Of a stretch of DNA of 64,000 nt, positions 10,731 to 58,928 are shown piece after piece. Under the pieces are notes generated by a model that ran no database searches, was not told the DNA's origin, and saw nothing but the letters and a program-made list of their open reading frames with translations. Within the stretch, counting starts at the first letter, position 1. Every line of letters starts with the position of its first letter. A program made the position numbers and the translations under genes. Location: NCBI RefSeq assembly GCF_032051675.1, contig NZ_CP116968.1, positions 558,001 through 622,000 of the forward strand, in the 5' to 3' direction. Source of the DNA: Candidatus Nitrospira neomarina. GTDB lineage: Bacteria; Nitrospirota; Nitrospiria; Nitrospirales; UBA8639.

Positions 10731-10798
10731 AACGAACCTCCTTTTACATGTACTAAAAGACCGCGCTTTCGATTCTTCTGTAGATGGCGAAAGGTCAC

Positions 10799-10843
10799 CC
10801 AGGGTTTTTCAGAGTATATGCCATTGGTGCAATCAGGTATGGT
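10799..10843 (+). promoter_or_regulatory. promoter with CMAG-N8-CCAG-type element for cupin gene
   Basis: CCAGGGTTTTTCAGAG has its core AGGGTTT at 10801-10807, followed by exactly 30 bp and TATGGT (10838-10843). The cupin start codon lies about 40 bp further on. Confidence 0.55.
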
Positions 10844-10884
10844 GTATTCAGACAACCACCTACAGACAGGAGGCGCAGGTATTC

Positions 10885-11235
10885 ATGGTCGATACGAGTA
10901 TTAAAAAAGTCCAATCAGATCATTCTCCTAAGGGTTCCATGGGACAGACTTACTTAGCCACGGGCGTGGGAATAGCCATGCGATTATGGGAACAATTGCC
11001 TATTGGACAGACACAGGAATCTTCATCCAGGGAATATGAAACCATCGGATATGTCATCCACGGTCGAGCTGAGCTGCAGTTGGAAGGTCAAACCATTTTG
11101 CTGAATGCGGGAGATTGTTGGGTGGTTCCCAAAGGCGCAAGTCACAGCTATACCATTCTTGAAACATTCACCGCGGTTGAAGCGACCCACCCCCCAGCGC
11201 ATGTCCATGGTCGCGATGAAGTCCCCCCCTCTTGA
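10885..11235 (+). CDS. small cupin-domain protein
   Basis: This 116-aa protein is a single-domain cupin_2 (about 30-105): YETIGYVIHGRAELQLEGQ and LNAGDCWVVPKGASHSYTIL are the two cupin motifs, with a His in GASHSY as a likely metal ligand. Such small cupins bind metal or small ligands and include sensors and isomerases, so no reaction can be named. CAGGAGG lies about 14-20 bp before the ATG and is rather distant. It is transcribed away from the hpnR remnant, downstream of a copy of the 16-bp promoter element, and converges with the M48 protease gene. Confidence 0.8.
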   Translation: MVDTSIKKVQSDHSPKGSMGQTYLATGVGIAMRLWEQLPIGQTQESSSREYETIGYVIHGRAELQLEGQTILLNAGDCWVVPKGASHSYTILETFTAVEATHPPAHVHGRDEVPPS

Positions 11236-11270
11236 TGTGCCGGCTGTTTCTGCCACAGTGAAATGATTCA

Positions 11271-12143
11271 TTATGGATTGACAGCCGGAAGCTCATGTTC
11301 TGGCGCATGTTCCACCTTCCGGAAGATTTGTAAGGCCTCAGGCATTTCTTCTTGAAGACGTGTAATTCTCGTCTCATGGCTTGGATGGGTGGAAAGAAAT
11401 TCGGAGGGGGCTCCCTCGCTTCCTTGTTGCATGCGTTGCCACACCCGAACCGCTTCCTGAGGATCATAGCCAGCCCGGGCTGCCAGAATCAGCCCAATAG
11501 AGTCGGCTTCGGATTCATGCGTGCGACTGTAGGGGAGGAGGATGCCGACTTTTGTTCCCAAGCCTAAGGCAGCCATCGTGGCCTGCCCCACAACAGGGCC
11601 CGCACCACTTACCCCAAGCCCCACGGCGGCAGCGGATAGTCCGGCTTGAGCAAGCACCTCCTGACTCATACGCTCCGAACCGTGGCGGGCAAGGGCATGG
11701 ACGACCTCGTGTCCCAGAATGGCCGCCAGTCCGGCATCGGTTTTGGCAACGGGGAAGATTCCGGTATACACGGCAATCTTCCCGCCCGGCAAAGCAAACG
11801 CATTTTTGGTCTGGTCATCTTTGATCACAGTGACTTCCCACTTAAAGGCTTTGGCGTCTTCCGCAAATTTGGATTCTTTTGCCGCTTGGATGATTCTTTC
11901 CGCCACACGATTTACGGCTTCTTGTTCCTCAGGGGATTGAGATTGTTGGACTTTAGGATCGGAAAGAATTTGCTGAAAAGCCTGTTCGCCCATTTCTGTG
12001 GCCTGAGATTGCGGTACCACAACAAGTTGGGACCGATCGGTATACGGAACGGTTTCGCACCCTATCGCCATGCTCATGAATATAATCAAAGAACAAAAAT
12101 GTTTACCAAGGTGAAGACGCGGAAAAACGATTTGTTTGTGCAT
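11271..12143 (-). CDS. M48-family zinc metalloprotease, lipoprotein
   Basis: The protein is 290 aa. A hydrophobic N-terminal segment ends in a lipobox MAIGC (C29), so it is probably an outer-membrane-anchored periplasmic lipoprotein. The peptidase domain has HEVVH (H145, E146, H149) and the third zinc ligand in ESEADSIGL, with the surrounding LARHGSERM typical of LoiP/BepA-type M48 proteases that degrade misassembled outer-membrane proteins. Length fits the single-domain (no TPR) subgroup. It converges with the cupin gene, leaving only 35 bp. Envelope quality control fits the many BON and secreted proteins nearby. Confidence 0.9.
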   Translation of the reverse strand: MHKQIVFPRLHLGKHFCSLIIFMSMAIGCETVPYTDRSQLVVVPQSQATEMGEQAFQQILSDPKVQQSQSPEEQEAVNRVAERIIQAAKESKFAEDAKAFKWEVTVIKDDQTKNAFALPGGKIAVYTGIFPVAKTDAGLAAILGHEVVHALARHGSERMSQEVLAQAGLSAAAVGLGVSGAGPVVGQATMAALGLGTKVGILLPYSRTHESEADSIGLILAARAGYDPQEAVRVWQRMQQGSEGAPSEFLSTHPSHETRITRLQEEMPEALQIFRKVEHAPEHELPAVNP

Positions 12144-23991: not shown

Positions 23992-26900
23992 ATGTTGTCT
24001 TCCAACCAGATGGCAGAACATATTCGAAATAAAAATTGGCTGGAAACCCCGCTGGGGGACATGGCCGGATGGCCCGCTCAGCTCAAAACCTCCGTCCAAA
24101 TTATCCTGGATTCGAGATATCCCATGTTTGTCTGGTGGGGGAGACATCTCATCAATATTTATAACGATGCCTATATTCCGATATTGGGGAACCGACATCC
24201 GCAGGCGTTGGGTGCTTGTGCATCGGAGATTTGGTCTGATGTCTGGGAGGTGGTTGGTCCCCAGGCCGACATTGTTTTTCAAGAAGGTCGTTCCACATGG
24301 AATGAGGATCTTCTCTTATTTATGCGTAGACATGGATTCTTAGAGGAAACCTTTTTTACATTTTCCTACAGCCCGATTAAGAATGAACAAGAAGATATCC
24401 TAGGACTCTTTTGTGCCTGTACCGAAGAAACCAGCCAGGTATTAAAAGGGCGAAGGCTTCATGCGCTCAGACGTTTGTCCGCAGTGACGGAAGAAGCCGA
24501 TTCTGTGGGAGAGGTGTGTCGGCTTTCGGCGGAAATTCTCACAGACAATTCCTTTGATATTCCGTTCAGCCTCATATATTTGTGGGATAAGGACGTACGC
24601 TCTCTGTGTCTGGCCGCACAATCAGGTTTTCAGTCTGATTCACTCCTGACTCCACTTCGACTCGAGATGGATGGAGACATGTTTCATCCTCAGCCATGGT
24701 GGCCGCTGTCACTTTCCCACAGGCGGGATGAGACCGTCTTCACTATAAACAGGCAGCTGAATCTTCCCGGAGGGCCGTGGCCGGAGCCGCCCCATCAGGG
24801 GATAGTGCTGCCTGTGGAGTCCTGGGAGACACAAAAACAATCCGGCTATCTAATTGTGGGGATCAGTCCGAGGCTGGCCATTGATGACCAGTACCGTGAG
24901 TTTTTGAATCTGCTCGCGAAGGGGATCTCGGGAGCCATTAATCGTGCGCAGGTCCGGACCGAAGAGCGGAAACGGATTGAAGCCTTGGCCGAACTGAACC
25001 GGGCCAAAACCGATTTTTTCAGTAATGTGAGCCACGAGTTCCGCACACCTCTCACACTGATTCTCGGGTCTCTGGAAGAAGCGATGCAAACCACCACCTT
25101 CACCACGGCTCCTGGTGTGGAGGTGGCCCACCGAAATGCGGTGCGGATGCTGAAGCTGGTGAACACGCTATTGGACTTTTCCAGTCTGGAAGCAGGCCGC
25201 ATGCAGGCCGTGTTTGAACCGGTGGATCTCTGTGAGTTGACCATTGACCTGGCATCGTCGTTTGAATCCGCCATGAAAAATGCCGGTCTGGAATTTGTCG
25301 TGTCCTGTTCCATGCTGTCTCAACCGGTCTACGTGGATCGGACCTGCTGGGAAAAGATCATGCTGAATCTGCTTTCCAATGCCTTAAAGTTCACGTTGCA
25401 AGGACGGGTGTCCATGGAAGTCAGTCCGCATGGGGAGAGCGTGGATGTCCGGATTGAGGATTCCGGAGTCGGCATGAGCCGGGAGACGCTTTCTCATGTG
25501 TTTGACCGGTTCTTTAGGGCCAAGGAAGCCCAGGGACGAACATTTGAAGGAACCGGAATCGGTCTGGCCTTAGTGAAAGAGTTGGTCGAAATGCATGGCG
25601 GGAGGATTCATGTAGAGAGTGAACCCGGAAGAGGAAGTGTGTTTACCGTGACGGTGCCGTTCGGATTTCATCACCTTCCGCCGGAGCAGGTGTGCCACAC
25701 ATCGACGCAACCAAAGGACGAACGTGTGGCCAAGTCGTTCATTTTGGAGACCCAGCAGTGGGCCGGAGCCACGGATCATGAACCGGCCGGTCAAAAAAAT
25801 CTCCAGGATGAAGAAGCTTTACCCCAGGAAATGGATCACTCACGCCCCACCATTTTACTGGTTGAAGACAATCGGGATATGCGGAATTATTTGACGCGTT
25901 TACTGTGTGCCGACTATGAGGTGGTGTCTGTCTGTGACGGGCAGGAAGCCTTGGAGCGGATTCACACGGTCCGCCCTCACCTTATTCTGAGTGATATCAT
26001 GATGCCCCGCATTGATGGACATGAATTGCTGACACGTCTTCGGTCCAATCAGGATTTTCAATCGACCCCGTTTATCTTCCTATCGGCCAGGGCCGGTCAG
26101 GAGGCCGAAATAGATGGACTTCTGACCGGTGCGGATGACTATCTCGTCAAGCCGTTTTCGGGGAGAGAGCTTCTGGCAAGGGTAAAAAAAATACTTCAAT
26201 TGGCCGCGATGCGTCGTACCGCGATCGAATATCAATCACGTTTCCAGTATCTCGCCCACCACCCCGAGATCATGACCTGGATTACGGACGCAGACGGGAA
26301 CTGTGTCTTCCTCAGTCAAACCTGGTATGACTTGACCGGGCAGACAGAGGCAACCGGGCTCGGTGAGGGTTGGTTGTCTGCCATTCATCCTCAGGATCGT
26401 CTATCTACCGAACAGGCGTTTTACGAAGCGAACAGAAAAAGACAGTCCGTTCGACTGGAATATCGCCTTCGGAGTGCGAAGGGTGAGTATCACTCTGTTC
26501 TGGATTCCGCCTCGCCCCGCTTTGAATCGGACGGCCGATATTTGGGGTATGTCGGTTTGGTGCTGGACCTTTCCTATCAGAAAGATATCGAGGAACAACA
26601 CCTGGAAAGTGAAGAGCGATTTCGTACTCTTGCCAATACGATTTCCCAATTTGCCTGGATGGCTGATTCCACGGGATGGGGATATTGGTACAACGCACGC
26701 TGGTACGAGTATACCGGGACCACGTTCAAGGATATGGAAGGGTGGGGCTGGAGGAAAGTCCATCACCCCGATCATGTCGACCGGGTGGTTGAAAAAATCC
26801 GCCGCTGTTTTCAATCCGGGCACATATGGGAGGACACCTTTCCTCTCAAGGGCAAGGACGGTGAATACCGATGGTTTCTCTCAAGAGCCGTGCCCATTCG

Positions 26901-28173
26901 GAATCAGCATGGGGAGGTCGTGCGATGGATCGGCACCAATACGGACATTACCGAATTAAAAACTACACAGGAGCAACTCCAACACCTGACGATCAAATTA
27001 GAAAGCCAAATTGCCAAACGCACGGAAGAGCTGCGGCATAATCAATCCCGTTTGCAGGCACTCGTGGGTGAACTGATTCTGACGGAACAGCGCGAACGAC
27101 GGAGGATTGCCGAGGAACTTCATGATTTTCTGGCGCAACTCCTCGTCGCCTGCCGGTTGCACGTCAACAGACTTGAGCAGATGAGTCACGAGGGTCACAT
27201 GCTTCCGGTTCTTCAAGAAATTGATCGCATTCTCAACCAATCGGTGGCGTATACACGCTCGCTGGTGGCTCAATTGGTCCCGTCAGTGTTGTATCAATTC
27301 GGGTTACTCAAGGCTTTGCAGTGGTTGGCAGAGGATATGAAACAATATGGACTGACCGTGGAAGTCAAAATGGAGCGCGACCATCTGACGCTCACCGAGA
27401 ATGAGGCGGTGCTTTTGTTTCAATCCATTCGTGAACTTATGATGAACGTGGTGAAACATGCCGGCGCGGACACCGTCTATCTGGCCGTCAGCCTTTCCTC
27501 ACCGGATGAGGTCTGTATCGACATTTCGGATCGGGGCGTTGGCTTCGATCCCAACCTCATCGAAAAACATAGCCATACGGCCAATCAATTCGGATTGTTC
27601 AGTATTCGAGAACGCATGTCTTTATTAGGTGGACGGATGGTCATAGACTCGAGTCCCGGTTCCGGAACACGCATCCGCTTGTATGTGGCCCTCTCTGAGC
27701 ATGACCAATCACATGTGACCGTACCTTTTTCAGATGGTGCACCTTCGATAGCCCAGGGAGCCGGTCAAGGCTCAAGTCCGGAAATGTCCTCGGGTTATCG
27801 AGTCCTTTTGGTCGATGACCATGCCGTGGTTCGACAGGGATTGCGAAGTTTGCTGGATGCCTGGCCCGACGTCGAGGTTGTCGGAGAAGCGGGGGATGGG
27901 ATCGAAGCCATCCGTCTGACAGAATCTCTGCAACCGGATGTGGTGGTCATGGATATTAATATGCCACATATGAACGGTATTGACGCCACCAGGCAGATTC
28001 GTCAGAACAACCCCAATATTCAGGTGATCGGATTATCGGTTCGTCAGGATAAGGAAACGGAGCAAGCCATGCGTGAAGCCGGTGCGGCCGGCTATTTGTC
28101 CAAGGAAACTGCCGGACAAGACCTGTATCGCATGATTGCCCGTATAGCCCGGCTGCATCAAAACTTCAGTTAA
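23992..28173 (+). CDS. two-kinase hybrid sensor: PAS-GAF-HisKA-REC-PAS-PAS-HisKA_3-REC
   Basis: This 1393-aa soluble protein combines two histidine kinases. An N-terminal PAS-like region (1-150) and GAF-like region (165-320) precede a class-I kinase with NVSHEFRTP (H348) and an intact ATPase (N463, DSGVGM, GTGIGLALV). A receiver follows (about 618-740, D668 in LSDIMMPRIDG), then two PAS/PAC domains (about 750-1005). A NarL-type HisKA_3 kinase has RRRIAEELHDFLAQLL (His near 1040) and its own ATPase with DRGVGFDP. A C-terminal receiver closes the protein (VVVMDINMPHMNG). It lacks DNA-binding output, so signals must leave by phosphotransfer, perhaps to the receiver at 22195 or LuxR-type regulators at 49-51 kb. 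No membrane helix implies a cytoplasmic signal. Confidence 0.9.
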   Translation: MLSSNQMAEHIRNKNWLETPLGDMAGWPAQLKTSVQIILDSRYPMFVWWGRHLINIYNDAYIPILGNRHPQALGACASEIWSDVWEVVGPQADIVFQEGRSTWNEDLLLFMRRHGFLEETFFTFSYSPIKNEQEDILGLFCACTEETSQVLKGRRLHALRRLSAVTEEADSVGEVCRLSAEILTDNSFDIPFSLIYLWDKDVRSLCLAAQSGFQSDSLLTPLRLEMDGDMFHPQPWWPLSLSHRRDETVFTINRQLNLPGGPWPEPPHQGIVLPVESWETQKQSGYLIVGISPRLAIDDQYREFLNLLAKGISGAINRAQVRTEERKRIEALAELNRAKTDFFSNVSHEFRTPLTLILGSLEEAMQTTTFTTAPGVEVAHRNAVRMLKLVNTLLDFSSLEAGRMQAVFEPVDLCELTIDLASSFESAMKNAGLEFVVSCSMLSQPVYVDRTCWEKIMLNLLSNALKFTLQGRVSMEVSPHGESVDVRIEDSGVGMSRETLSHVFDRFFRAKEAQGRTFEGTGIGLALVKELVEMHGGRIHVESEPGRGSVFTVTVPFGFHHLPPEQVCHTSTQPKDERVAKSFILETQQWAGATDHEPAGQKNLQDEEALPQEMDHSRPTILLVEDNRDMRNYLTRLLCADYEVVSVCDGQEALERIHTVRPHLILSDIMMPRIDGHELLTRLRSNQDFQSTPFIFLSARAGQEAEIDGLLTGADDYLVKPFSGRELLARVKKILQLAAMRRTAIEYQSRFQYLAHHPEIMTWITDADGNCVFLSQTWYDLTGQTEATGLGEGWLSAIHPQDRLSTEQAFYEANRKRQSVRLEYRLRSAKGEYHSVLDSASPRFESDGRYLGYVGLVLDLSYQKDIEEQHLESEERFRTLANTISQFAWMADSTGWGYWYNARWYEYTGTTFKDMEGWGWRKVHHPDHVDRVVEKIRRCFQSGHIWEDTFPLKGKDGEYRWFLSRAVPIRNQHGEVVRWIGTNTDITELKTTQEQLQHLTIKLESQIAKRTEELRHNQSRLQALVGELILTEQRERRRIAEELHDFLAQLLVACRLHVNRLEQMSHEGHMLPVLQEIDRILNQSVAYTRSLVAQLVPSVLYQFGLLKALQWLAEDMKQYGLTVEVKMERDHLTLTENEAVLLFQSIRELMMNVVKHAGADTVYLAVSLSSPDEVCIDISDRGVGFDPNLIEKHSHTANQFGLFSIRERMSLLGGRMVIDSSPGSGTRIRLYVALSEHDQSHVTVPFSDGAPSIAQGAGQGSSPEMSSGYRVLLVDDHAVVRQGLRSLLDAWPDVEVVGEAGDGIEAIRLTESLQPDVVVMDINMPHMNGIDATRQIRQNNPNIQVIGLSVRQDKETEQAMREAGAAGYLSKETAGQDLYRMIARIARLHQNFS

Positions 28174-30801: not shown

Positions 30802-33800
30802 GTGACTAGAAAAAAAGATTCGTCCAAGGGTCGATCAGCATCCTCCCCTGCTCCCTCGCCGAAGCAATCCCCAACCGTCAAAAAAGCACGGAAGTCCTCC
30901 AATAGCCCAAAGGCTTCCTCTTCAGCACCAAGCCCTACACCAGATTCCCAGAGGGTGGCGGCTGATTCGCAGTCCAATGCCTTTCCCATTGCCGGGATCG
31001 GCGCTTCGGCTGGAGGGCTCGAGGCATTGGGCGGGTTCTTTTCCACGCTTCCTGAGGATAGCGGAATGGCTTTTGTGGTGATTCAGCACCTGGCTCCCGA
31101 TCGCGAAAGCCTGATGCCGGAATTGCTGACGCGGAAGACCTCGCTGCCGATTCATGTCGCGGTAGATGAAACGTTAGTCGAACCCAATCATATTTATATT
31201 ATGCCTCCGAACACGCAATTGAGCATTGAGGGTGGATTTTTGCGAGTGGACCGTCCTTCACAAGTGCATGGCCTTCGAACGCCCATCGATAAGTTTTTCC
31301 AATCCCTGGCCGAAGATCAGGGTCCATTTGCCATCGGAGTGATTCTGTCCGGCGCAGGGTCCGACGGAGCAGTCGGGCTTCGATCCGTGAAGGAGCATGG
31401 CGGGTTAACGATTGCCCAATCAGCCGAAACGGCCCAATTCTCCGGGATGCCGACGAGTGCCATTCTGACCGGATTGATCGATCATATCCTCCCGGTCGAA
31501 GCCATCGCGGAAGTGCTGATTCTCTATGCGAAGTATTTATACGAATTACGGGACGGGAAAGGACTGGACACCCTTCGTGCAGAAGCGCTGAACCACTTAG
31601 ACGTGATCTGTTCGCATCTGCACCGTCGGACCGGACACGATTTCCGTGGCTACAAACGGAATACGATGGGTCGGCGGGTTCAGCGGCGCATGCAGATTCT
31701 GCACATTGCCTCTCCCGCGAGTTATGTCAAACGATTACAGGAGGACTCGGATGAAGTCGATGGGTTGTTTAAGGAGCTGTTAATCGGTGTGACGCAATTT
31801 TTTAGAGATCCGGAAGCGTTTGCATTTTTCTCCGGCACGATCGTCCCCAAGATCGTGCAATCCAAACAAAACGATGAAGCCATCCGGGTGTGGGTCCCGG
31901 GCTGTTCGACGGGAGAAGAAGCGTATTCGCTGGCGATTCTCTTTCATGAATACCTCCGTCGGGAACATCTTAGCATTCCTATTCAAATCTTCGGGACGGA
32001 TATTGATGAACGGGCATTGGATTTTGCCCGCCGTGGACGATATCCGGAGAGCATTCGGGAGGATGTGCCGCCCGATCGACTGTTCCAGTTCTTTGAACAG
32101 GAGGGTTCCGTTTATCGGGTCGCCAAGGAAATACGCGAATTATGTATCTTTTCCTTTCATAATCTCGTCGGCAATCCCCCGTTTTCCCGCATGGATGTGA
32201 TTTCCTGCCGGAACCTGTTGATCTACATGGAACCCGATCTTCAGAATCAGATGTTTGCCGTGTTTCATTATTCCCTCAACCCTGAGGGCTATCTGTTTCT
32301 CGGCGCGTCGGAACAGGCGGAAGACCAATCCCGATTCTTTCACTCCGTGAATAAACGCTTTCGGGTGTTTCAACCCAAAGAGATCATGCGCCGCACATTT
32401 CCCAACTTTCCGATACGGGGACCGCGTGGCCGCCTGCCTACTGCGAAACCGGCTCTGTTTCCCCAGATGCAGGACCCCTTCACGCACACCTTCGATCAAC
32501 TGGTGAGAGAGGAGTACGGTCCTCCCGCGGTGTTGATCGATAAAGATTGCCATGTGCAATATGTCTCCGGCCGGACCGGGACCTACCTGCAGCTTCCCTC
32601 AGGTTCGCTCGACGTGAATTTGATCAATATGGTCACGCCGGATTTGCGTATGCCCTTGCGAACCGGAATATTCAAGGCCGTGAAAACCGGCAAGGAAGTG
32701 GTCAACCCCAATATTCAATTGGCTGTGAATGATGATCTGCAATCTGTGGATATCATTGTTCGTCCGCTGTTTCATGCCAAGCAATCATCCGATCTGCTGA
32801 TGGTGGTCTTCCGTGAGAAAGGACTCACCCGGAAATCTTCCAAAGTCCCGAAGAAATACTCCAAAGGCGAGCACCGGACGATCACGGACTTGGAGCAGGA
32901 AATTCACGCCACCAAGGAGCATTTGCAAACGGCCCTGGAAGAACTGGAGACCTCCAACCAGGATTTGAAATTTTCCAATCAGGAATTGATGTCGGTCAAT
33001 GAGGAGCTCCAATCCGCCAATGAAGAACTGCAAACATCCACGGAAGAATTGCAGTCGATCAATGAAGAATTGGAAACGGTCAATGCGCAACTCTCAGGAA
33101 AAGTGGAGGAACTGGATCACGCCAATAGCGATATGGAAAATCTTTTTCGGACGACGGACATTGCCACGTTATTTCTAAATGCCGATTTAGGTATTCAGAA
33201 ATACACGCCTGCTGCCCAAAAGATGTTTCAGTTTTTGGATACCGATCTCGGCCGGCCCATCACTCAATTGTCCTCATTTTCTGAGGATAAAACGTTAATG
33301 GGGGATATTCGGGAGGTGCTGCGCACCTCACGGATTAAGGAGCGGACGCGCCGATTTTCTCATGACACCCGGACATTTTTCTCACGATTGACTCCCTACC
33401 AAAGCAGCAACAATGAGGTCGAGGGAGTCGTGCTGACCTTTGTGGACATCACGCAGCTTTCCAATGTGGAAGATCAAGTGCTTCGTTTCTCTCAACAACA
33501 GAAGGTGATGGCGGACTTCGCCCAGTTGGCGCTTCAGGAAAGAGATGTGCAGAGGGTCATGGACGCATGTGTGACACTCCTGAGTCAGACCTTACCGATC
33601 GAAATGGCCAAAGTGCTTGAATTATTGCCGGGAGGAGAGTCTCTCCTTCTTCGCGCCGGAATCGGATGGAAAGAAGGATTGGTCGGCCATGCGGTGGTGG
33701 GCACCGATCTCGATTCCCAGGCTGGGTATACGCTGATATGCGACAAGCCCGTGATCGTCAAAGATCTATCCCGGGAAAGCCGGTTTTCCGGTCCCTCCTT

Positions 33801-35166
33801 ACTGATTGATCATCAGGTGACCAGTGGCATGAGTTGCATCATCCGGGATCAGGACGGCAATCCGCACGGAGTGCTCGGTGTGCATACGTCATCGAGTCGG
33901 GAGTTTGGGGAGAAGGAGGTAGAGTTCCTACAAGCCATGGCCAATATTCTGGCCTCGGCCATACACCGGAAAAATATCGAAAATAAACTGCAGTCCATGA
34001 CCGAATCGCTGGAAGGCCGCGTCGCTGAACGGACACAGGAACTCCTTCAGCATCAACACCGACTGCGTCAACTGTCCTTAGACCTTATTCTCACCGAACA
34101 ACGGGAACGGCGTCGCATTGCCACCGAATTACATGATTATTTGGGCCAGTTGCTGGTTGTGGGGAAGATCAAAGTCAGTCAGTTGCAACAAGCCGATCTT
34201 TCGAATCGGCAGGCACCTCTTGTGCGGGAAATGGAAGAATCTCTGGATGAGGCGTTGCAATACACGCGGGATCTCATTCCTCAAATCAGTCCGCCCATCT
34301 TGTATGAATTCGGGTTCATGGCAGCCATCCGATGGTTGGCCGAAAAAATGGGCCGGTATGATTTGCGCGTCACGGTGACCTCTCATGTTGATGATCATCT
34401 ATTAAATCTTCCGGAATCCGACTCAATTATTCTGTATCAGGTCATCAGGGAATTATTGTTGAATGTGATGAAGCATGCCCAAACCCAGGAAGCCTCCATT
34501 GTCCTCAATTTAGTCTCACCGGAGTTTTTTGGAATAGAAGTGGCGGATCGCGGATGTGGTTTTGATCTGTCCTCGACCCGTGAAACTCATTCCCACTACG
34601 AAAAATTCGGCCTGTTAAATGTGCAAGAACGCGTGGAAAGTCTTGGAGGTGAATGTGAGGTTCTTTCGACTGTCGGTGCGGGCACCCGCGTGCTGATCAA
34701 GATGCCTTTTTCCTTTCAAGATGCTGAGTTGGAGGCCATTCAGCTCTCCTCTCCTGCCAAGGCTGTGGAGATTGCGAATCCCGGGAAAATGGAGGAAAGC
34801 ATTCGGGTCGTGCTTGCGGATGACCATCCCATATTCCGTGAAGGATTGAGCACCATGTTAAATGCCTGCCCCGATATTCAGGTGGTCGGAGAAGCCCAAA
34901 ACGGCGAACAGGCGGTTGAGCTTGTTCGGTCTCTCCATCCTGATGTGGTGGTGATGGATATCAATATGCCGGTGATGAACGGAATAGAAGCTACCCGCCT
35001 CATCAAAGCCAGCCACCCGTCAGTCTATGTTATCGGGTTGTCCATGCATGGGGATCAGATCGTGACCAAGAACTTTGCAGAGGCTGGAGGAGATGAATAT
35101 GTTTCCAAAGGGGATTCATTCGGTTCCTTCGCCGAATTCATTCGATCCAGTCAAAAAAATCGATGA
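30802..35166 (+). CDS. CheB-CheR-PAS-GAF-histidine kinase-receiver fusion
   Basis: This is a 1454-aa fusion. After a Ser/Pro/Lys-rich N-terminus (1-58) comes a CheB methylesterase with GIGASAGG (S69), IQHLAPD (H96) and GAGSDG. A CheR methyltransferase follows (about 250-480, VPGCSTGEEAYSLA and NLLIYM). Next are a PAS-like region and a long coiled coil of NEELQSANEELQ type repeats (about 690-780). PAS, GAF, and a NarL-type HisKA_3 kinase (RRRIATELHDYLGQLL) with ATPase follow, ending in a receiver (VVVMDINMPVMNG). CheB-CheR-PAS fusions regulate chemoreceptor-like signalling; the added kinase and receiver make it a self-contained relay. The start is GTG without a clear Shine-Dalgarno. No receptor or CheA is adjacent. 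Confidence 0.9.
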   Translation: MTRKKDSSKGRSASSPAPSPKQSPTVKKARKSSNSPKASSSAPSPTPDSQRVAADSQSNAFPIAGIGASAGGLEALGGFFSTLPEDSGMAFVVIQHLAPDRESLMPELLTRKTSLPIHVAVDETLVEPNHIYIMPPNTQLSIEGGFLRVDRPSQVHGLRTPIDKFFQSLAEDQGPFAIGVILSGAGSDGAVGLRSVKEHGGLTIAQSAETAQFSGMPTSAILTGLIDHILPVEAIAEVLILYAKYLYELRDGKGLDTLRAEALNHLDVICSHLHRRTGHDFRGYKRNTMGRRVQRRMQILHIASPASYVKRLQEDSDEVDGLFKELLIGVTQFFRDPEAFAFFSGTIVPKIVQSKQNDEAIRVWVPGCSTGEEAYSLAILFHEYLRREHLSIPIQIFGTDIDERALDFARRGRYPESIREDVPPDRLFQFFEQEGSVYRVAKEIRELCIFSFHNLVGNPPFSRMDVISCRNLLIYMEPDLQNQMFAVFHYSLNPEGYLFLGASEQAEDQSRFFHSVNKRFRVFQPKEIMRRTFPNFPIRGPRGRLPTAKPALFPQMQDPFTHTFDQLVREEYGPPAVLIDKDCHVQYVSGRTGTYLQLPSGSLDVNLINMVTPDLRMPLRTGIFKAVKTGKEVVNPNIQLAVNDDLQSVDIIVRPLFHAKQSSDLLMVVFREKGLTRKSSKVPKKYSKGEHRTITDLEQEIHATKEHLQTALEELETSNQDLKFSNQELMSVNEELQSANEELQTSTEELQSINEELETVNAQLSGKVEELDHANSDMENLFRTTDIATLFLNADLGIQKYTPAAQKMFQFLDTDLGRPITQLSSFSEDKTLMGDIREVLRTSRIKERTRRFSHDTRTFFSRLTPYQSSNNEVEGVVLTFVDITQLSNVEDQVLRFSQQQKVMADFAQLALQERDVQRVMDACVTLLSQTLPIEMAKVLELLPGGESLLLRAGIGWKEGLVGHAVVGTDLDSQAGYTLICDKPVIVKDLSRESRFSGPSLLIDHQVTSGMSCIIRDQDGNPHGVLGVHTSSSREFGEKEVEFLQAMANILASAIHRKNIENKLQSMTESLEGRVAERTQELLQHQHRLRQLSLDLILTEQRERRRIATELHDYLGQLLVVGKIKVSQLQQADLSNRQAPLVREMEESLDEALQYTRDLIPQISPPILYEFGFMAAIRWLAEKMGRYDLRVTVTSHVDDHLLNLPESDSIILYQVIRELLLNVMKHAQTQEASIVLNLVSPEFFGIEVADRGCGFDLSSTRETHSHYEKFGLLNVQERVESLGGECEVLSTVGAGTRVLIKMPFSFQDAELEAIQLSSPAKAVEIANPGKMEESIRVVLADDHPIFREGLSTMLNACPDIQVVGEAQNGEQAVELVRSLHPDVVVMDINMPVMNGIEATRLIKASHPSVYVIGLSMHGDQIVTKNFAEAGGDEYVSKGDSFGSFAEFIRSSQKNR

Positions 35167-36157
35167 TGTCTCTTGAGCCCCTCACATAAAAATTAAGTCC
35201 CAGGAGCGAAGAAGGGAAGCGAAAGAATCTCGCTATACCTATCGCACGCGTGACCATCATTTTCGACTTCCCGGTTCTACGGTTGTCATGCTGAGCTGCA
35301 GGCGAAGCATCTCCCCAGGCCAAGGCCCGGTTGGGCCGGGCTCAGATCCTTCGTCAGACTCCGGATGACAATGCCGAGGGGCTGGATAATGATCGCCCCA
35401 CCATATCGGTGTCATGCTGAGCTGCAGGCGAAGCATCTGGCCAAGCCGTGACTCGGTTGAGCCAAGCCTAGATCCTTCGTCCGACTCAGGATGACCAAGC
35501 GGAGGGACGGGATAAGGTGATGCCTCCCGATCCCTTCGGTGTTTCAGCTCCACGGTTGTCATGCTGAGCGGCAGGCGAAGCATCTCCCCCAGCCGTGACC
35601 CGGTTGAGCCGGGCACCGATCCTTCGTCCGACTCAGGATGACCAAGCGGAGGGACGGGATAAGGTGATGCCTCCCGATTCCTTCGGTGTTTCAGCTCCAC
35701 GGTTGTCATGCTGAGGTCCGCGAAGCATCTGGCCAAGCCGTGACCTGGTTGAGCCAGGCACCGATCCTTCGTCCGACTCAGGATGACAAAGCGGAGGGCT
35801 GGATTATGATCGCCCTACCATTGATGCCTCACGACCCCTTCGGCTTTTCAGTTCCCCGGTTGTCATGCTGAGCTGCAAGCGAAGCATCTCGCCAAGCCAA
35901 GATCCGCTCGAGCCTGGGAGAGACAGCTTTCTCGTCTCTCAGGATAAATTACTTCGTGGCAGGCTATGGAAGAGCCATCCATTCACTTGGACCAGGGAAG
36001 AAGAATTATATTTTTCATTTGAGTCTTCCCGCATTTTGTCCATGTCGTTTGACATTCGCGTTCTGGTTCACTGTGCGCAACCGGTATTCAATAGGGTAAT
36101 AGCGAGGCGGCGAGTCTCTACGGAGATGGAGGCTTCCGCAATTGGCAACGTATCCCC
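35167..36157. repeat. five imperfect tandem palindromic repeats
   Basis: Units start at about 35281, 35408, 35554, 35701 and 35858 (period roughly 127-157 bp). Each begins GGTTGTCATGCTGAG and ends near CTCAGGATGAC about 85-90 bp later; GTCATGCTGAG and CTCAGGATGAC are complementary except for one base, so each unit can form a long hairpin. Inner blocks GCGAAGCATCT and GATCCTTCGTC are also conserved. Between units lie AAGGTGATGCCTCCCGAT-type spacers. The fifth copy loses its right end. The array is intergenic, REP/BIME-like, and gives a spurious repetitive ORF on the minus strand. From about 35960 to 36157 nothing further is seen. Confidence 0.85.
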
Positions 36158-39426: not shown

Positions 39427-41409
39427 CTAGGCAGGTTTTTGTTGACGCCGATATTTCCTGACGATGGTGACTAAGTTTTCAGCCGGACCTCCCTTCGTGA
39501 CAAATGCCGCCGCTCCTGCCTCCCGGAACCATCGGGCCACGTCCGGCGTGTCATACACGGATAATCCGATCATCACAGTGTCGGGAAAGAATTGTTTGAT
39601 ATTTTTGATGGCTTCCAGACCGTCCATCTTGGGCATGTGAAGATCCATCACGACGACGTCGGGGCGGAGTGACTCACAAAGGGTCACTGCCTGTTTCCCG
39701 TCTTCTGCCTCTCCGACGACTTCAAAATCCACTTGAGCGTTCAGAATATGGCAAAATCCCTCACGGACCATCTTATGATCATCTGCGAGAAGAATGCGGA
39801 TTTTTTCTGAAGGAGGACGGGAAACATGAGCCTTTTTGTGGGCGTGCACCTGAGTCGGTTTGACCGTGCGTAGCTGGAGATCCTCCTGGCTGTGTTCAAT
39901 GGGAATACGCAAAAGGACTTGAGTGCCTTGTTGCGGGGCTGAATGGAGAACCATTTCTCCGCCGAGGGCTTCCAATCGCTCTCGAATACTAAAGAGTCCA
40001 AAATTGGTCGGAGATTGTTCATTTCTCTCTTCAAGACTTTCATGAAACCCGCAGCCGGAATCCTTCACTTCGATCAGCAGATGGCTGTCCTGTGGGAAAG
40101 ACAGATTCACCATCACCTCATGCACGCCGGAATGTTTAAGTACGTTATATAACAGTTCCCGAACGGATTGAAAGACGAGAACGGCTTGATCTTCCGGCAG
40201 GTTTAGTGTCTCATCTGTACTTTTCAAGGTGACCGTTAATCCCTGTTTTCCCATTTCGGTTCCCAACCAGACGAGAGCGGCATGGAGTCCGAATTCATAG
40301 AGACAGGTCGGACTCAGTTGGCTGACCAGTGTTCGTGTATACGTCAGGGATTGATCCAAGAGGTTATCCGCTTCCTGAATCACCTTGAGGAGGGTTTCCT
40401 TATCTGAAATCGATTGACCTTGACTTAATTTCAGTCGACAGACGACAAGGAGCTGTGCCAGATAATCATGAAGGTCCGTCGCCAACCGGCGTCGTTCCCG
40501 TTGTTCGGTTACCGTGAGATCGGAAGCCATGGCGCGTAGCCGTTCCTGGTTGCGAGTGAGTTCCTGAGTACGTTGCATCACGCGCTCTTCCAATGTGCGA
40601 TTTAATTCGGCTAATTTGTCACTGGTATCTTTTTGAGCGCTTTTGTCCCGGACCACTTTGGCAAATCCGATCAGTTTGTCGTCGGGGTCGCGTATAGCCG
40701 TCACCGCGCCACTGGCCCAAAATCGTGACCCATCGGCCCGTACCAGCCAATTGTCATCGTCCCCTTTTTCTAAGGATTCCGCCCTTCGCAATTCGGTTGC
40801 CGGGCGACCATCCCGTTTGTCTTCAGCAGTAAAGAGTAGAGAAAAATGTTTATGCAATGCCGCGACTTCTGTGTGCCCAAAAAGCCGCTCAGCTCCGGAA
40901 TTCCAATGGGTAATGTTCCCCTCCAAATCAAGCATGATAAAAGCCAGGCCGGTGGCGCCATCAACAAATAGCCGGTACTTTCTTTCACTATCCCGGCGAA
41001 TCCGCTCATTCTTTTCCCGTTCAATGGCATAGTGCAGAATTCGGGAAAGTAACACGGCATTCATCGAAGATTTCGGGATATAATCCTGTGCCCCTAATTT
41101 GATGGCTTCAAGGGCCAGCGGTTCATCATCGGTGCCGGTTAACACCACGAGGGGAATGGCCGAGTTTGCCGACCGGATTATTTTCAAGGTTTCAAGTCCA
41201 TTGGTTTCCGGCAGATTTAGATCAAGAAGGATAACGTCAAACGGCGTGCCGTGAAGGATGGTCAGGGCCTCTTTCAGCGTCGATACCCGGGTGATATGAA
41301 AGGGGGACATGCCGGAGGCATCCTTCAGCCGCTCGCGCACTAATTCTGCGTCGGCCGGATTGTCCTCCACTAACAGGATGGAATGAGTCGGGGATGGGAG
41401 ATCGCTCAT
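39427..41409 (-). CDS. hybrid sensor: REC-PAS-HisKA_3-ATPase-REC
   Basis: This 660-aa protein begins with a receiver ([13 protein letters not shown]). A PAS domain follows (about 140-260), then a NarL-type kinase with [16 protein letters not shown], an ATPase domain (about 400-495) with DSGCGFHE, and a C-terminal receiver ([13 protein letters not shown]). It is similar in its last 360 residues to the kinases at 23992, 30802 and 52339, so these are paralogues. It is the last gene of a three-gene minus-strand operon: its ATG overlaps the stop of the Rcp1-like regulator (ATGA). No DNA-binding domain is present. The N-terminal receiver suggests it integrates phosphate from the upstream kinase. 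Confidence 0.9.
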
Positions 41410-49641: not shown

Positions 49642-50295
49642 ATGAGCAAAGCGCGGGTACTCTTAGCTGAAGATCACGTTCTGGTTAGTGAGGGGCTGAC
49701 CAAACTACTGGAAGCTGATTTCACATTGGTGGGGACTGTTGTCGACGGTCATGCATTAGTGAAAGCCGTCAAGAAACATACACCGGACATTGCGATCATT
49801 GATATTTCACTGCCGCTATTGAATGGGTTGGAAGCCGCCCGACAAATAAAAAAATGTGAACCCCAAACAAAATTAATTTTTCTCACTATGCATTCCGAGG
49901 AACATTTTGTCCATGAGGCCTTCAAGGCCGGTGGGGTGGGGTATATTTTAAAACAATCTGCGACAGCAGAATTAGTGTTTGCGATTAAGGAGGTGTATCA
50001 GGGGCGCACCTACGTTTCTCCTTCTATTGCCCAGGGTCTGGTCAGTCAAGCACTGAACCCCTCTGCTAATTCGAAAAAACCCCCTCAGGCAGAGACTCCC
50101 GCATTGACTCAACGACAGGTGGAAATCCTTCAATTGGTTGCTGAAGGAAAATCCAATAAAGACATTGCGATCATTTTAAATTTGGCCGTCAAAACCGTGG
50201 AATTTCATAAGACACGTGTCATGCAGGTCTTAGGACTCAAAACGGCCTCCGAACTTACGAAATATGCCATTTCCAATGGAATTATTTCTGTGTAA
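49642..50295 (+). CDS. NarL/LuxR-family response regulator
   Basis: This 217-aa regulator has a receiver (1-120, D54 in IAIIDISLPLLNG, Lys in YILKQS) and a C-terminal LuxR-type HTH (about 152-205, LTQRQVEILQLVAEGKSNKD then VKTVEFHKTRVM). It is a likely DNA-binding output for the NarL-type kinases in the window (23992, 30802, 39427, 52339), none of which has its own HTH. It converges with a paralogue at 50406 (about 45% similar by eye). The Lys of KP is followed by Gln rather than Pro. No strong Shine-Dalgarno precedes the ATG. Confidence 0.9.
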   Translation: MSKARVLLAEDHVLVSEGLTKLLEADFTLVGTVVDGHALVKAVKKHTPDIAIIDISLPLLNGLEAARQIKKCEPQTKLIFLTMHSEEHFVHEAFKAGGVGYILKQSATAELVFAIKEVYQGRTYVSPSIAQGLVSQALNPSANSKKPPQAETPALTQRQVEILQLVAEGKSNKDIAIILNLAVKTVEFHKTRVMQVLGLKTASELTKYAISNGIISV

Positions 50296-50405: not shown

Positions 50406-51065
50406 TTAATCAAGGGAGGAAATCCCTAATTTGACAGCGTATTTCGTCAGATCTGCCTTAGAGTGAAGACCCAGGGCCTGCACAATTTGCATTTTATGGA
50501 ATGCGACTGTGCTTTGAGATATGGCCAACAAGTTGGCTATGTCTTTCGCCGAGAAACCTTGAGCCACAAGCTTTAACACCTCCTGTTGCCTGGGAGTCAA
50601 TTTTCCGGAAAGTTCGGTCCCCGGCATCCCATCCATTTGGGCAAGAACCGCATTCTGGACCTCCTCAGGAATGAGGGGAGAGAGATATTTCCGGTTTTCC
50701 TGAACTTGTTGAATCGCTGATAACAATTCGTTCCCTGCCGTTTGCTTCGGGACATACCCTTCACCGCCACTACGGAACGCCTCCATGATAAAGGTAGGTT
50801 CTAAATGCATGGAAACAAAAATTATTTTAATTGATGGACATATCGTTTTTAACATTAGAGCAGCTTCGTATCCGTTTTGATCCGGCATTGAGATGTCCAT
50901 GAGAAGAATGTCGGGCTTGGTTTGTCGGATTTGGCCGGCCAAATCACTTGCGGTATGGGCCTCCCCAACGATGTCGTGATAGGGTTCAAGCAATTTTTTA
51001 CAGCTCTCTAATACAAGAATATGATCGTCAACAAGGAATAATCGTGCCCGCTTCGTTGTATTCAT
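50406..51065 (-). CDS. NarL/LuxR-family response regulator
   Basis: The 219-aa protein has a receiver (1-125, D57 in ILLMDISMPDQNG, Lys in YVPKQT) and a LuxR HTH (about 155-210, LTPRQQEVLKLVAQGFSAKD then STVAFHKMQIVQ). It is a close paralogue of 49642. A copy of the promoter element with exact 30-bp spacing lies about 140 bp upstream, so this regulator is itself a member of the putative regulon, which is compatible with autoregulation. Its partner kinase is unknown; the ABM-domain kinase at 52339 is the nearest candidate. Confidence 0.9.
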   Translation of the reverse strand: MNTTKRARLFLVDDHILVLESCKKLLEPYHDIVGEAHTASDLAGQIRQTKPDILLMDISMPDQNGYEAALMLKTICPSIKIIFVSMHLEPTFIMEAFRSGGEGYVPKQTAGNELLSAIQQVQENRKYLSPLIPEEVQNAVLAQMDGMPGTELSGKLTPRQQEVLKLVAQGFSAKDIANLLAISQSTVAFHKMQIVQALGLHSKADLTKYAVKLGISSLD

Positions 51066-52338: not shown

Positions 52339-53817
52339 CTAGGGGGACAATGGGATCGTGATGGTGATGGTTGTGCCTCTCTGAGGAGAGGAGATAATAT
52401 CTAACTGTCCTTTTACGGCCTTAATGCGTTCGCGATAAAAGAAGAGGCCCAGATGTCCAGAATCCTGTTCGCGTTGGCTGACCACTGGGTCAAATCCTTT
52501 TCCCGAATCGAGTACCCGGATGAGAAGCTCGTGTTCCGAAGGACATTCCCAATCAATCGATGCGTTCGCGACTCCTGCATGTTTTATGACATTAATCAGC
52601 AACTCCCGAACGGTCTTGTAGACCACGATGCTGATATTTTCTGCAACCTTCACTGATGGGACGATCCCAGGACTCGACACCGTTAAACCAAAGCGTCGCA
52701 TATCCGCAATGAGGTATTGGAGTGCGGCCAGTAATCCCTGCTGGTGCAATATGGCCGGGTGTAAATCCGAGATCAGTGTTCGGGTAAATGTCAAGGATTG
52801 ATCGATGATTCCGTCAACCTCCTGAAGGACCCTTGCATAGGCCGGTTTGATGGTTTCCTGACCAATTTGGGCGAGCTTGAGTCGACAGGCGATGAGCATC
52901 TGGGCAAGATAATCATGTAATTCGTTTGCCAGGTGTTGGCGTTCGCGTTGTTCGACAAGGGCCAATTCTACCAACATGGACCGCAATTGTTCCTGATGGA
53001 ACACCAGATCTTTTGTCCGTTCGGTGACCAGCTGATTTAAATATGAATTATTTTCAGACAGCCGGTTCGCGCTTTTTACCTCTTCCCGCATCTTGACCGT
53101 CATTTCATTTTGAATCTGCATGAGTTCCACGAACGCCCGCTGGTTGAACTTTTCCGGTTCCTCCCCGATTAAAATGATCGCCTGAGAAGAGGTCTTCTGG
53201 ACTAAGCAGTCGAACGTGTGAGGATTGTAAGCCGAATCAATAAAATTGAGCTGGATCCGCTCGTGGGAGTTGGAACTCCCAATTTCAAGAACATCCTGAA
53301 GGCGATGTTGGTCCGTTGTGGTGAGAAAATCCCAGATGGTTTTGGTCTCAAATTCTGTTTTGGGTATGTTGAGTTTACCAAGCAGGACGTCGTTATAGAC
53401 CTGAATTCGTCCATCGGGACTGATCACACAATACACGATGGTATCTGTTTGATTCAGAAACGCTTCAAGGAGCAGGATGGAATCACCAAGAAAATCCATA
53501 AGTTCACCTTGGTCTTCCCGGTGAGGAAGACGTTCCAGTTCAAGGATTTGCGTGACGGTCGGATCCAACTTGAGGCCCTGGGGAAGCATGTTGTGGGAAA
53601 GGCGATGTTCGGGACTTTTATGCCAGGCGTGAAAGGTTTCACGATCGGTCCAACGCGTGACCAGGTGGAAAATACTTGGATCTGAGGGAGGGGTATACAC
53701 TTCTATTCCTAAGAATCCCGGCACGGTCTCTACCAACCTGGGTCGTTCTTGAAAGGCCTTAGCCACGTCCTGTTCCAACCCGTTTGCGACCTTAAATCGT
53801 GATATGACAAGCACCAT
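52339..53817 (-). CDS. histidine kinase with N-terminal ABM/IsdG-like domain
   Basis: This 492-aa protein begins with an antibiotic-biosynthesis-monooxygenase (ABM) fold (1-80): VISRFKVANGLEQDVAKAFQ, VPGFLGIEVY and RWTDRETFHAWHKSPEHRLS. In IsdG-type heme-degrading members the proximal His sits in the last helix; H75 is in the matching place. A PAS-like region (about 115-235), a coiled coil (235-285) and a NarL-type kinase (RQHLANELHDYLAQ, H301) with ATPase (DSGKGFDP) follow. It has no membrane helix. ABM domains as kinase sensors are unusual; heme, a quinone-like ligand or redox change could be the signal. The gene starts 13 bp after the B12-binding protein, forming one operon with it. Confidence 0.85.
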   Translation of the reverse strand: MVLVISRFKVANGLEQDVAKAFQERPRLVETVPGFLGIEVYTPPSDPSIFHLVTRWTDRETFHAWHKSPEHRLSHNMLPQGLKLDPTVTQILELERLPHREDQGELMDFLGDSILLLEAFLNQTDTIVYCVISPDGRIQVYNDVLLGKLNIPKTEFETKTIWDFLTTTDQHRLQDVLEIGSSNSHERIQLNFIDSAYNPHTFDCLVQKTSSQAIILIGEEPEKFNQRAFVELMQIQNEMTVKMREEVKSANRLSENNSYLNQLVTERTKDLVFHQEQLRSMLVELALVEQRERQHLANELHDYLAQMLIACRLKLAQIGQETIKPAYARVLQEVDGIIDQSLTFTRTLISDLHPAILHQQGLLAALQYLIADMRRFGLTVSSPGIVPSVKVAENISIVVYKTVRELLINVIKHAGVANASIDWECPSEHELLIRVLDSGKGFDPVVSQREQDSGHLGLFFYRERIKAVKGQLDIISSPQRGTTITITIPLSP

Positions 53818-53830
53818 TATTGTGTTCCCA

Positions 53831-54883
53831 TCATGCCAAAAGGGTCGTTAAGGAGCGTAAATCGTGCGCAAACCCATCTGCTCCGATTTCTCGAAAGACA
53901 TCGGGGAGTGACCGGAATGCCGATCCGCCCACAAGGATGCGAGGGGTGTGCTCCGGGAGAAAATGATTTCTGATGTCTTTGATCAAATCTCTCACAGTCG
54001 GGACCTTGAGAACCATCGTCGCGGAAATACCGACAAGTGTGGGTTGGAATTCCTTGATCATGTGAAGGATGGCCTGATGAGGAATATTGACACCTAAAAA
54101 CCGGATATCCCATCCTCTCGCTTCGAGCAGGTCCGCCACCATGTGGGACCCCACTTGATGGAGTTCGCCTTCCACACCGGTGATAATCCCTTTCCCTTGA
54201 AACGGTTGTGCAGGTTTAACGCAGGAATAGAGGTTGGCCATCACATATTGGGTGATGGCCGTCGCCACGTGTTCCTGGGCGACCGAGATACGATTGGATT
54301 CCCAGAGTCTGCCGATTTCATATAACGATTCTTGAAAAAGTTCTACATACACATCGGAGAGAGAGTCGGTCATCGAAAACGCTTCAATCGCAATCGTTTT
54401 GGCAGCGTGGCGGTCTCCGGCCAAAAGGGCTTGAAGAAAGATTTCCTGATGCAGTGTTAACGGAGAGCGGGGAGGCGTGGCGGTGGGAGCTTCTGATAGT
54501 GGAGACTCATGAGGGCTCTCTATTAAATGGGTCCGCACGACCCTTTTTTCCAAATCGGTAAGATGGGGCTCTAATGCCTGAGAGATGTGGTTCAAAAACT
54601 TCTGGAGTACACTCCGGGGAATACTTCTTGCCTGAAGCACATTGGTTGTCCAACGTACGTATTGTCTGAAAGTTTCCTCCGTTCCAAATTCAATGGCCGT
54701 TCTGAGAAAAGTCAAGTGGAAACGGGCGTCGGTGGCACAGTGTACCTTCCCTGATTCTCCATACGCATCTGTTTCGGGATAGTGTTGAAAGAACTGTGTC
54801 GTAATGACCTCAATTACCTCCCCTTCAAGGAACTTCAATTTTTCTGCAAGCCGGTGCCGGTCTTTACTGGGGACGTCTTTCAT
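53831..54883 (-). CDS. B12-binding photoreceptor-like protein (W-x9-E-H motif)
   Basis: The 350-aa protein has an N-terminal helical domain (1-120) of unknown type, a linker, a B12-binding four-helix cap (about 143-222) and a Rossmann B12-binding domain (about 230-345). The cap carries W194, then nine residues, then E204-H205, the W-x9-E-H signature of AdoCbl photoreceptors such as CarH, in which Trp and His shield the adenosyl group. The Rossmann part has E240-L-H242-Q-V-G, with H242 as lower axial ligand. Unlike CarH, no MerR-type DNA-binding domain is present. It probably senses light or B12 and passes the signal to the ABM-domain kinase encoded 13 bp downstream. Family function as a light sensor is inferred, not shown. 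Confidence 0.85.
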   Translation of the reverse strand: MKDVPSKDRHRLAEKLKFLEGEVIEVITTQFFQHYPETDAYGESGKVHCATDARFHLTFLRTAIEFGTEETFRQYVRWTTNVLQARSIPRSVLQKFLNHISQALEPHLTDLEKRVVRTHLIESPHESPLSEAPTATPPRSPLTLHQEIFLQALLAGDRHAAKTIAIEAFSMTDSLSDVYVELFQESLYEIGRLWESNRISVAQEHVATAITQYVMANLYSCVKPAQPFQGKGIITGVEGELHQVGSHMVADLLEARGWDIRFLGVNIPHQAILHMIKEFQPTLVGISATMVLKVPTVRDLIKDIRNHFLPEHTPRILVGGSAFRSLPDVFREIGADGFAHDLRSLTTLLA

Positions 54884-57956: not shown

Positions 57957-58928
57957 TTAATCAGACGAGGCCGGTGCTCTGGATTCTTCTGCATCGGAGA
58001 GTCTGAATGGAGTATTGGAGGCCGGACCCAAGGTTCCGGTCCACCATTGTGTTTGCGCGGGATTCTCTTTTTTCATGGTTTTCGTTATGCCACAAATTTC
58101 ATGTTTACTCATTTTTCCGATCGGATTCAGCCGGGCATCCCGATACTTCCATGAATGAATCGGGATGACATATTGTTCCCAGGAAAGAAGAGATCCATAA
58201 CATACTCTGGATGTTGACAAAGCGGGCGCTCCGGCTAATTTGTCGGATAGTCTTTCCCAGAGATCCCGCCAAACCCAATTGGGGATTTTCCAGGTCTCGC
58301 CGGGATACACAAACGAAAATATGGTGAGGTGACTCAGGAGAAGCTCCCAATGTGTCTCAAAACGTTTAAATAATCGAGCCCAATCCAGCCCGGGGCCGCA
58401 GGCATGAAACAGATGAATGATGTCCGCTCCATCATACCGATGACGTTCCATCACAAAAGCTTTCGTCCAAATCATTTCTTCTGGAGGGGTGAGACGGATC
58501 GGCCAGCTCTCCCACGTGGCATAAGGGGCATACCGAAACCATTCCTCATCCACATCACACAACCCGTTCCCTGAACTGAAAATCATATCGACAAACAATT
58601 CATTATGGGAGACCTTGCCCAGCCAATGACTATAGGTTGTTTCCGTTCGATAACCCGCTTTTTTCATGGCTTTCATCACTTCAGGATAATCATGAGGGTA
58701 GACAAAAATGTCGATATCTTTTGTGTGGCGTGCGATACCTGTTAAGGCGGCCAACGCATAAGATCCGCCTAATAGAAAGGAAATGTTGGACTTCAGGAGG
58801 AATGACAGCACGTCGGTGTAAAACCGGCGGTAGGAAGCTTTCCGGGCCAGGTCGGGAACCGAAAAAGGCGTCTGAATGGTTGTGCCATCGCCGATGGATG
58901 GTGGGGGGTTTGTGTACCTTGGAGCCAT
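57957..58928 (-). CDS. nucleotidyltransferase-fold protein
   Basis: The 323-aa protein has a nucleotidyltransferase core: FLLGGSYALA (G54, S56) and KDIDIFV (D71, D73), the GGS-x-DxD pattern, followed by a region with VDMIFSSGNG carrying a third acidic residue. A helical C-terminal half (about 150-300) follows, with Trp-rich motifs (WKIPNWVWRDLWERL). Related stand-alone enzymes include MNT toxins/antitoxins, AbiEii and tRNA or aminoglycoside modifying enzymes; the target cannot be named. It is 10 bp downstream of the metallophosphoesterase gene, so the two form an operon. Confidence 0.75.
   Translation of the reverse strand: MAPRYTNPPPSIGDGTTIQTPFSVPDLARKASYRRFYTDVLSFLLKSNISFLLGGSYALAALTGIARHTKDIDIFVYPHDYPEVMKAMKKAGYRTETTYSHWLGKVSHNELFVDMIFSSGNGLCDVDEEWFRYAPYATWESWPIRLTPPEEMIWTKAFVMERHRYDGADIIHLFHACGPGLDWARLFKRFETHWELLLSHLTIFSFVYPGETWKIPNWVWRDLWERLSDKLAGAPALSTSRVCYGSLLSWEQYVIPIHSWKYRDARLNPIGKMSKHEICGITKTMKKENPAQTQWWTGTLGPASNTPFRLSDAEESRAPASSD

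Follow-up and report, generated by a model that had tools for sequence, protein, structure and literature searches.

The window, a stretch of 64,000 nucleotides from Candidatus Nitrospira neomarina, contains two neighbouring genes that encode a B12 protein and a sensor histidine kinase (Table 1). Among 20 genomes of the genus that were examined, six have an orthologue of the B12 protein, each with the kinase 13 nt downstream, and a seventh has a fragment of the kinase only. The gene pairing, which had been proposed as a check in an original prediction made for this locus, is kept in six species with the exact 13-nt gap, and similar pairs occur in other phyla. Viral contigs were searched for relatives and none were found. 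The LuxR/NarL-type response regulator at 50406-51065 is on the same strand as the kinase, and its synteny holds across the four genomes compared, G016, G018, and G013 having it in the same order and orientation. It is probably the output of the kinase. A second LuxR-type regulator is also found nearby (Table 1).

Table 1. Positions of the gene pair, its domains and motifs, and the nearby regulators in the window
Feature	Position	Strand	Remarks
Photocobilin-type protein, 350 aa	53831..54883	(-)	N-terminal bilin-type globin and C-terminal CarH-like cobalamin domain
Phycobiliprotein/photoglobin-like domain, aa 1-122, five helices	54518..54883	(-)	Profile, Pfam, and structure matches
C49-A-T-D52	54728..54739	(-)	D52 = SasPcob Asp270; C49 = phycobiliprotein attachment Cys position
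W78 = SasPcob Trp296	54650..54652	(-)	Alignment; invariant in 14 homologues
Cobalamin-binding domain, aa 143-350, helical bundle and Rossmann fold	53834..54457	(-)	PF02607 and PF02310; nearest structures 8jbs, 8j2w
GxxW194-x9-E204-H205, upper-ligand (adenosyl) pocket signature	54269..54313	(-)	
E240-x-H242-x-x-G245, cobalt-ligand motif	54149..54166	(-)	
Intergenic gap, 13 nt	53818..53830		Same length in all six species
Sensor histidine kinase, 492 aa	52339..53817	(-)	ABM / PAS-like / coiled coil / HisKA_3 / HATPase_c
ABM/IsdG-like domain, aa 1-98	53524..53817	(-)	S6 in place of catalytic Asn; W65 and H75 kept
PAS-like domain, aa 110-225	53143..53490	(-)	PAS_9 17 bits, below cut-off; low-confidence secondary structure
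HisKA_3 (phosphoacceptor H301 in ELHD) and HATPase_c (N409, DSGKGF, GHLGL)	52345..52944	(-)	
LuxR/NarL-type response regulator	50406..51065	(-)	Probable output
Second LuxR-type response regulator	49642..50295	(+)	Strand opposite to the pair; syntenic

Other regions of the window were also annotated. Three large hybrid kinases (23992-28173, 30802-35166, and 39427-41409) have HisKA_3 cores that are 35-43% identical to that of the ABM kinase, which suggests a local family expansion. A B12-binding radical-SAM-like gene at 9193-10566 is apparently split into three open reading frames, with an internal TGA near 10560 within the B12 match. The open reading frame at 35257-35736 is built of a repeated ESDEGS...EMLRL-LSMT unit and is probably a translated intergenic DNA repeat and not a gene. 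The protein encoded at 57957-58928 is nucleotidyltransferase-like (NTP_transf_5), and its similarity to AbiEii is weak.

The C-terminal part of the B12 protein matches the B12-binding (9e-17) and B12-binding_2 (2e-15) families far above chance. The published signature of light-responsive cobalamin domains consists of GxxW, EH, GxxH, and GxxxP (PMC11796333), and all four motifs are present in the protein as G191-x-x-W194-x9-E204-H205 and E240-L-H242-Q-V-G245, with G239-E-L-H and G264-V-N-I-P rounding off the set. The W194-x9-E204-H205 and E240-x-H242-x-x-G motifs had been predicted and are exact in coordinates and residues. In a PDB sequence search, the best match was the photocobilin SasPcob (8j2w/8j2x, E 2e-28), and 8jbs was found at 5e-21. 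VIA structure alignment of the protein to these nearest solved relatives, which are light receptors, gave Z 18.2 and 17.9, and the cobalamin domain aligned to CarH 5c8d with Z 13.9. Among the other B12-domain loci checked in the window's genome, GxxW-x9-EH occurs in the MerR-type CarH only. In a tree of cobalamin-binding domains (CBDs), the B12 protein and this CarH fall apart, the deep order being without resolution. Adenosylcobalamin (AdoCbl) is likely to be supplied, since two families of cob(I)alamin adenosyltransferases are present in the genome.

Related domains were observed at other loci. At L100 (G000:C1:2443500-2457500; 1867-2781 and 10736-11734), the MerR-type CarH with its intact W-x9-EH and a MerR-CBD paralogue that has lost the EH motif lie 8 kb apart, which is reminiscent of a CarH/CarA pair. 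In other Nitrospirota, free-standing cobalamin domains of 217-218 aa carry the full light motif and are not fused to a globin (L084, 3121-3777; L085, 6304-6957).

The original prediction of a helical N-terminal domain in place of a MerR helix-turn-helix (HTH) was borne out, and the domain can now be named. In the single-sequence PDB search, a second, faint stretch of the B12 protein matched the C-terminal biliverdin-binding globin of SasPcob. A profile of 11 N-terminal domains matched the SasPcob biliverdin domain at 9.6e-7, allophycocyanin beta-18 at 8e-5, and many phycocyanins. The Pfam Phycobilisome family was matched by 6 of the 11 domains (best 1e-9), the window's own domain alone giving no match. 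The designed tendon-repeat protein 7rdr, also matched by the profile, was dropped because its score is the sum of eight repeats of 4-5 bits. In an AlphaFold model of modest quality (pLDDT 66), the N-terminus forms five helices. Residues 5-130 align with smURFP (VIA Z 14.5, 3.2 A, 126 residues) and the N-terminal model with allophycocyanin (Z 14.2, 2.6 A, 120 residues), but a VIA Z of 14 is about chance level for helical bundles, so the globin identity is carried by the sequence evidence, by which the N-terminus is a bilin-binding-type globin of the phycobiliprotein/photoglobin kind. In SasPcob, Asp270 is the key biliverdin contact and Trp296 touches ring D (PMC10979010; the numbering is chain index + 5, per the paper). 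Among 11 homologues, the equivalent D52 is invariant, and C49 is present in at least 90%. C49 is three residues ahead of D52 and falls, in the alignment, on the Cys in the CxRD motif of phycobiliproteins (CVRD in 6hrk, allophycocyanin), and covalent attachment of a bilin through it is possible.

By its anatomy, the B12 protein belongs to those photocobilins that have a C-terminal CBD, a layout that has already been recognised (PMC10979010). It has a CarH-like domain with GxxW-(x9)-EH and E/DxHxxG, a fused phycobiliprotein-like globin, and the Asp270/Trp296 equivalents D52/W78. With the photocobilins SasPcob (8J2W/8J2X) and AbDPcob (8J2Y) it shares the same motif in the CarH-like domain, a five-helix biliverdin-type globin, and a coupled signalling output (PMC10979010). 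In contrast, the globin is C-terminal in SasPcob and N-terminal here, SasPcob has Thr at the position of C49 and photocobilins are said to lack this Cys (PMC10979010), and the output here is a separate ABM-PAS-HisKA_3 kinase. Photoglobins/BBAG-2 (PMC10151467) are likewise bilin-type globins tied to B12-binding proteins and bilin-synthesis genes. However, BBAG-2 is without the CxRD motif, whereas the window protein has C49-x-x-D52, and pre-PcyA was not seen at the loci examined. CarH/LitR proteins are similar in the signature and fold of the cobalamin domain but differ in their MerR DNA-binding domain, and a CarH of the MerR type is encoded elsewhere in this genome. Membership of CarH/LitR was rejected, as the N-terminus is a globin and a MerR HTH was not matched. 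The CarH/LitR-type B12 photoreceptor proposed originally therefore holds for the complete light signature, whereas the relatives are photocobilins and the bilin-type globin had been missed.

Spread outside the genus was judged from Nitrospirota genomes and plasmids, and a wider contig scan with genus-specific peptides gave two loci. The globin-then-CBD order is also found in Azospirillum, Skermanella, Ilyobacter, and other Nitrospirota, where the neighbours are mostly signalling genes. The HisKA kinases beside the globin-CBD gene in Azospirillum and G196 are homologues of each other (30% over ~400 aa, 1e-56), a GGDEF-type diguanylate cyclase adjoins it in Ilyobacter and G123, and in G257 its neighbours are a hybrid kinase and a PAS protein. 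In Skermanella, no signalling partner follows directly. Similarity between the sensory regions of the partner kinases from other phyla and those of the window kinase was not detectable. A PAS/coiled-coil docking element shared with the kinases and cyclases of other phyla, considered from a loose N-E-[LM]-x4-R pattern seen by eye, was dropped at a profile comparison probability of 2.7%.

Haem oxygenase is present in 11 of 395 genomes of the phylum. The G196 operon opens with one (1.2e-55), and the G257 operon encodes a haem-oxygenase protein two genes 3' of the globin-CBD gene on the same strand. Bilin binding by the globin family gains support from this linkage. The G196 operon (L081, G196:C85, 1207-6429), from Nitrospirota, comprises haem oxygenase, globin-CBD, HisKA kinase, response-regulator/kinase hybrid, and response regulator genes, and is a candidate for a complete bilin/B12 light-signalling operon. 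The G257 protein (L082, G257:C41, 4166-5449) has 427 aa and starts with a haem oxygenase domain, the ~220 residues at its C-terminus having no assigned domain, and the globin-CBD and PAS genes are on its strand. A search for canonical haem oxygenase (PF01126) found none in any of the six genomes that carry the window's pair, so the globin may be empty. In addition, no phytochrome PHY domain was found in the window's genome.

CBDs may also serve as light-independent B12 sensors. In such a case, cobalamin or its redox or ligand state would be read and passed to the kinase, and the globin would be structural. The cobalamin-domain fold is common to corrinoid proteins and AerR/AppA SCHIC, which fits a B12-status sensor, as do the genomes without PF01126, and the light-driven reading is based on sequence and predicted structure. 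On the other hand, the light signature is complete, the nearest relatives are measured light receptors, the bilin contact residues are retained, and haem oxygenase is linked in the sister operons, all of which make sensing of B12 status instead of light rather unlikely.

The kinase matches ABM (1.5e-17), HisKA_3 (1.6e-9), and HATPase_c (4e-11), and its phosphoacceptor His and intact HATPase_c place it in the NarL/HisKA_3 type. A kinase of this type 13 bases downstream with an ABM N-terminus was predicted correctly, the PAS match being weak. The ABM family takes in haem-degrading enzymes, and the ABM domain here aligns with MhuD, TT1380 (1iuj, the top match), and 8avh and is also related to IsdG. 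In the alignment with 8avh, a haem-degrading enzyme, H75 is opposite the His, as expected from the predicted place of a haem ligand, and W65 is opposite the Trp, whereas the third catalytic residue, Asn, is replaced by Ser6. The domain thus resembles the IsdG/MhuD-type haem-degrading monooxygenases (ABM, PF03992) in the ABM fold and in two residues of the catalytic triad, Trp and His, but differs from them in this Ser and in its fusion to a histidine kinase. Judged from these residues, binding of haem or bilin is plausible and turnover of haem doubtful; active IsdG-type haem degradation is unsupported, as the Asn-Trp-His triad is incomplete. The proposed haem reading by the ABM domain accordingly keeps two of its three residues. 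Structure prediction of the single proteins, also suggested at the outset, gave globin/photocobilin fold matches for the B12 protein, but the kinase N-terminus (pLDDT 49) was too poor for a structure search. On plasmids, an ABM-kinase fusion was not seen at a coverage of at least 80%.

The kinase itself could also lead, as a haem or haem/bilin sensor in which the ABM domain binds haem via H75 as the main input and the photocobilin modulates. The relationship to MhuD, 8avh, and IsdG, the invariance of W65 and H75, and the position of the genome's sole ABM (PF03992) domain on this kinase agree with it, and between G000 and G013 the ABM domain is 88% identical, compared to 73% for the kinase domain. 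The coiled coil is likewise better conserved between these two genomes (92%). However, this arrangement is very unlikely in view of Ser6 at the catalytic Asn, the many ABM proteins that do not bind haem, and the top match, TT1380, which was deposited as a hypothetical protein. A light-independent corrinoid methyl-transfer protein that lies beside the kinase gene by chance is hardly credible. Weak matches to MtbC/MtgC-type proteins, far under their cut-offs, speak for it, but a methyltransferase neighbour is absent, W-x9-EH and the globin domain are present, and the pairing with signalling genes is strict.

The pair is best explained, with a probability of about 0.6, as a split photosensory two-component system that consists of a photocobilin, a co-encoded kinase, and a neighbouring LuxR-type regulator, and it probably converts light to gene regulation. 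Its domains, signature residues, conserved pairing, and synteny are read from the DNA. As for cofactor occupancy, AdoCbl would be seated between the helical bundle and the Rossmann fold, with H242 under the cobalt and W194, E204, and H205 around the adenosyl group, and the globin would offer a bilin pocket with D52, W78, and possibly a covalent link to C49. In the photochemistry we infer, light taken up by AdoCbl, or by the bilin and then passed on, would break the Co-C bond. AdoCbl photolysis is known to disturb the photocobilin dimer, and enzyme control through protein contact has been reported for a stand-alone photocobilin domain (PMC10979010). Similarly, Co-C breakage here would alter the dimer interface and change a presumed direct contact with the kinase at its ABM/PAS part; the kinase would then shift its phosphorylation state and pass phosphate to the neighbouring regulator. 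A role of the ABM domain in haem or bilin handling may be added, in which it would supply or hand over the chromophore of its partner in place of haem oxygenase, so that a single operon would produce its bilin, bind it covalently via C49 of the photocobilin, and read it; this is a speculative and quite unlikely extension.

The earlier interpretation is thus partly supported, being right in direction and incomplete. Its joint sensor of two proteins survives as a conserved pairing of a B12-type photoreceptor with a kinase, but a bilin is a likelier second chromophore than haem. Three features are apparently new, and part of this may already be on record: the occurrence in a Nitrospirales genus, a Cys of the phycobiliprotein type, and, in genomes where canonical haem oxygenase was not found, the fixed pairing with a kinase headed by an ABM domain.

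If true, the split photosensory system would extend two-chromophore B12/bilin photoreception to the Nitrospirales lineage. It would also provide a naturally occurring, light-controlled histidine kinase in the form of two separable proteins, which would be useful for optogenetics and could easily be reconstructed in E. coli. With a Cys at the phycobiliprotein position, the photocobilin may be a covalent one, which offers a testable link between photocobilins and phycobiliproteins. Moreover, with sister operons that contain haem oxygenase and a genus that lacks it but has an ABM domain on the kinase, the source of the bilin becomes a direct question.
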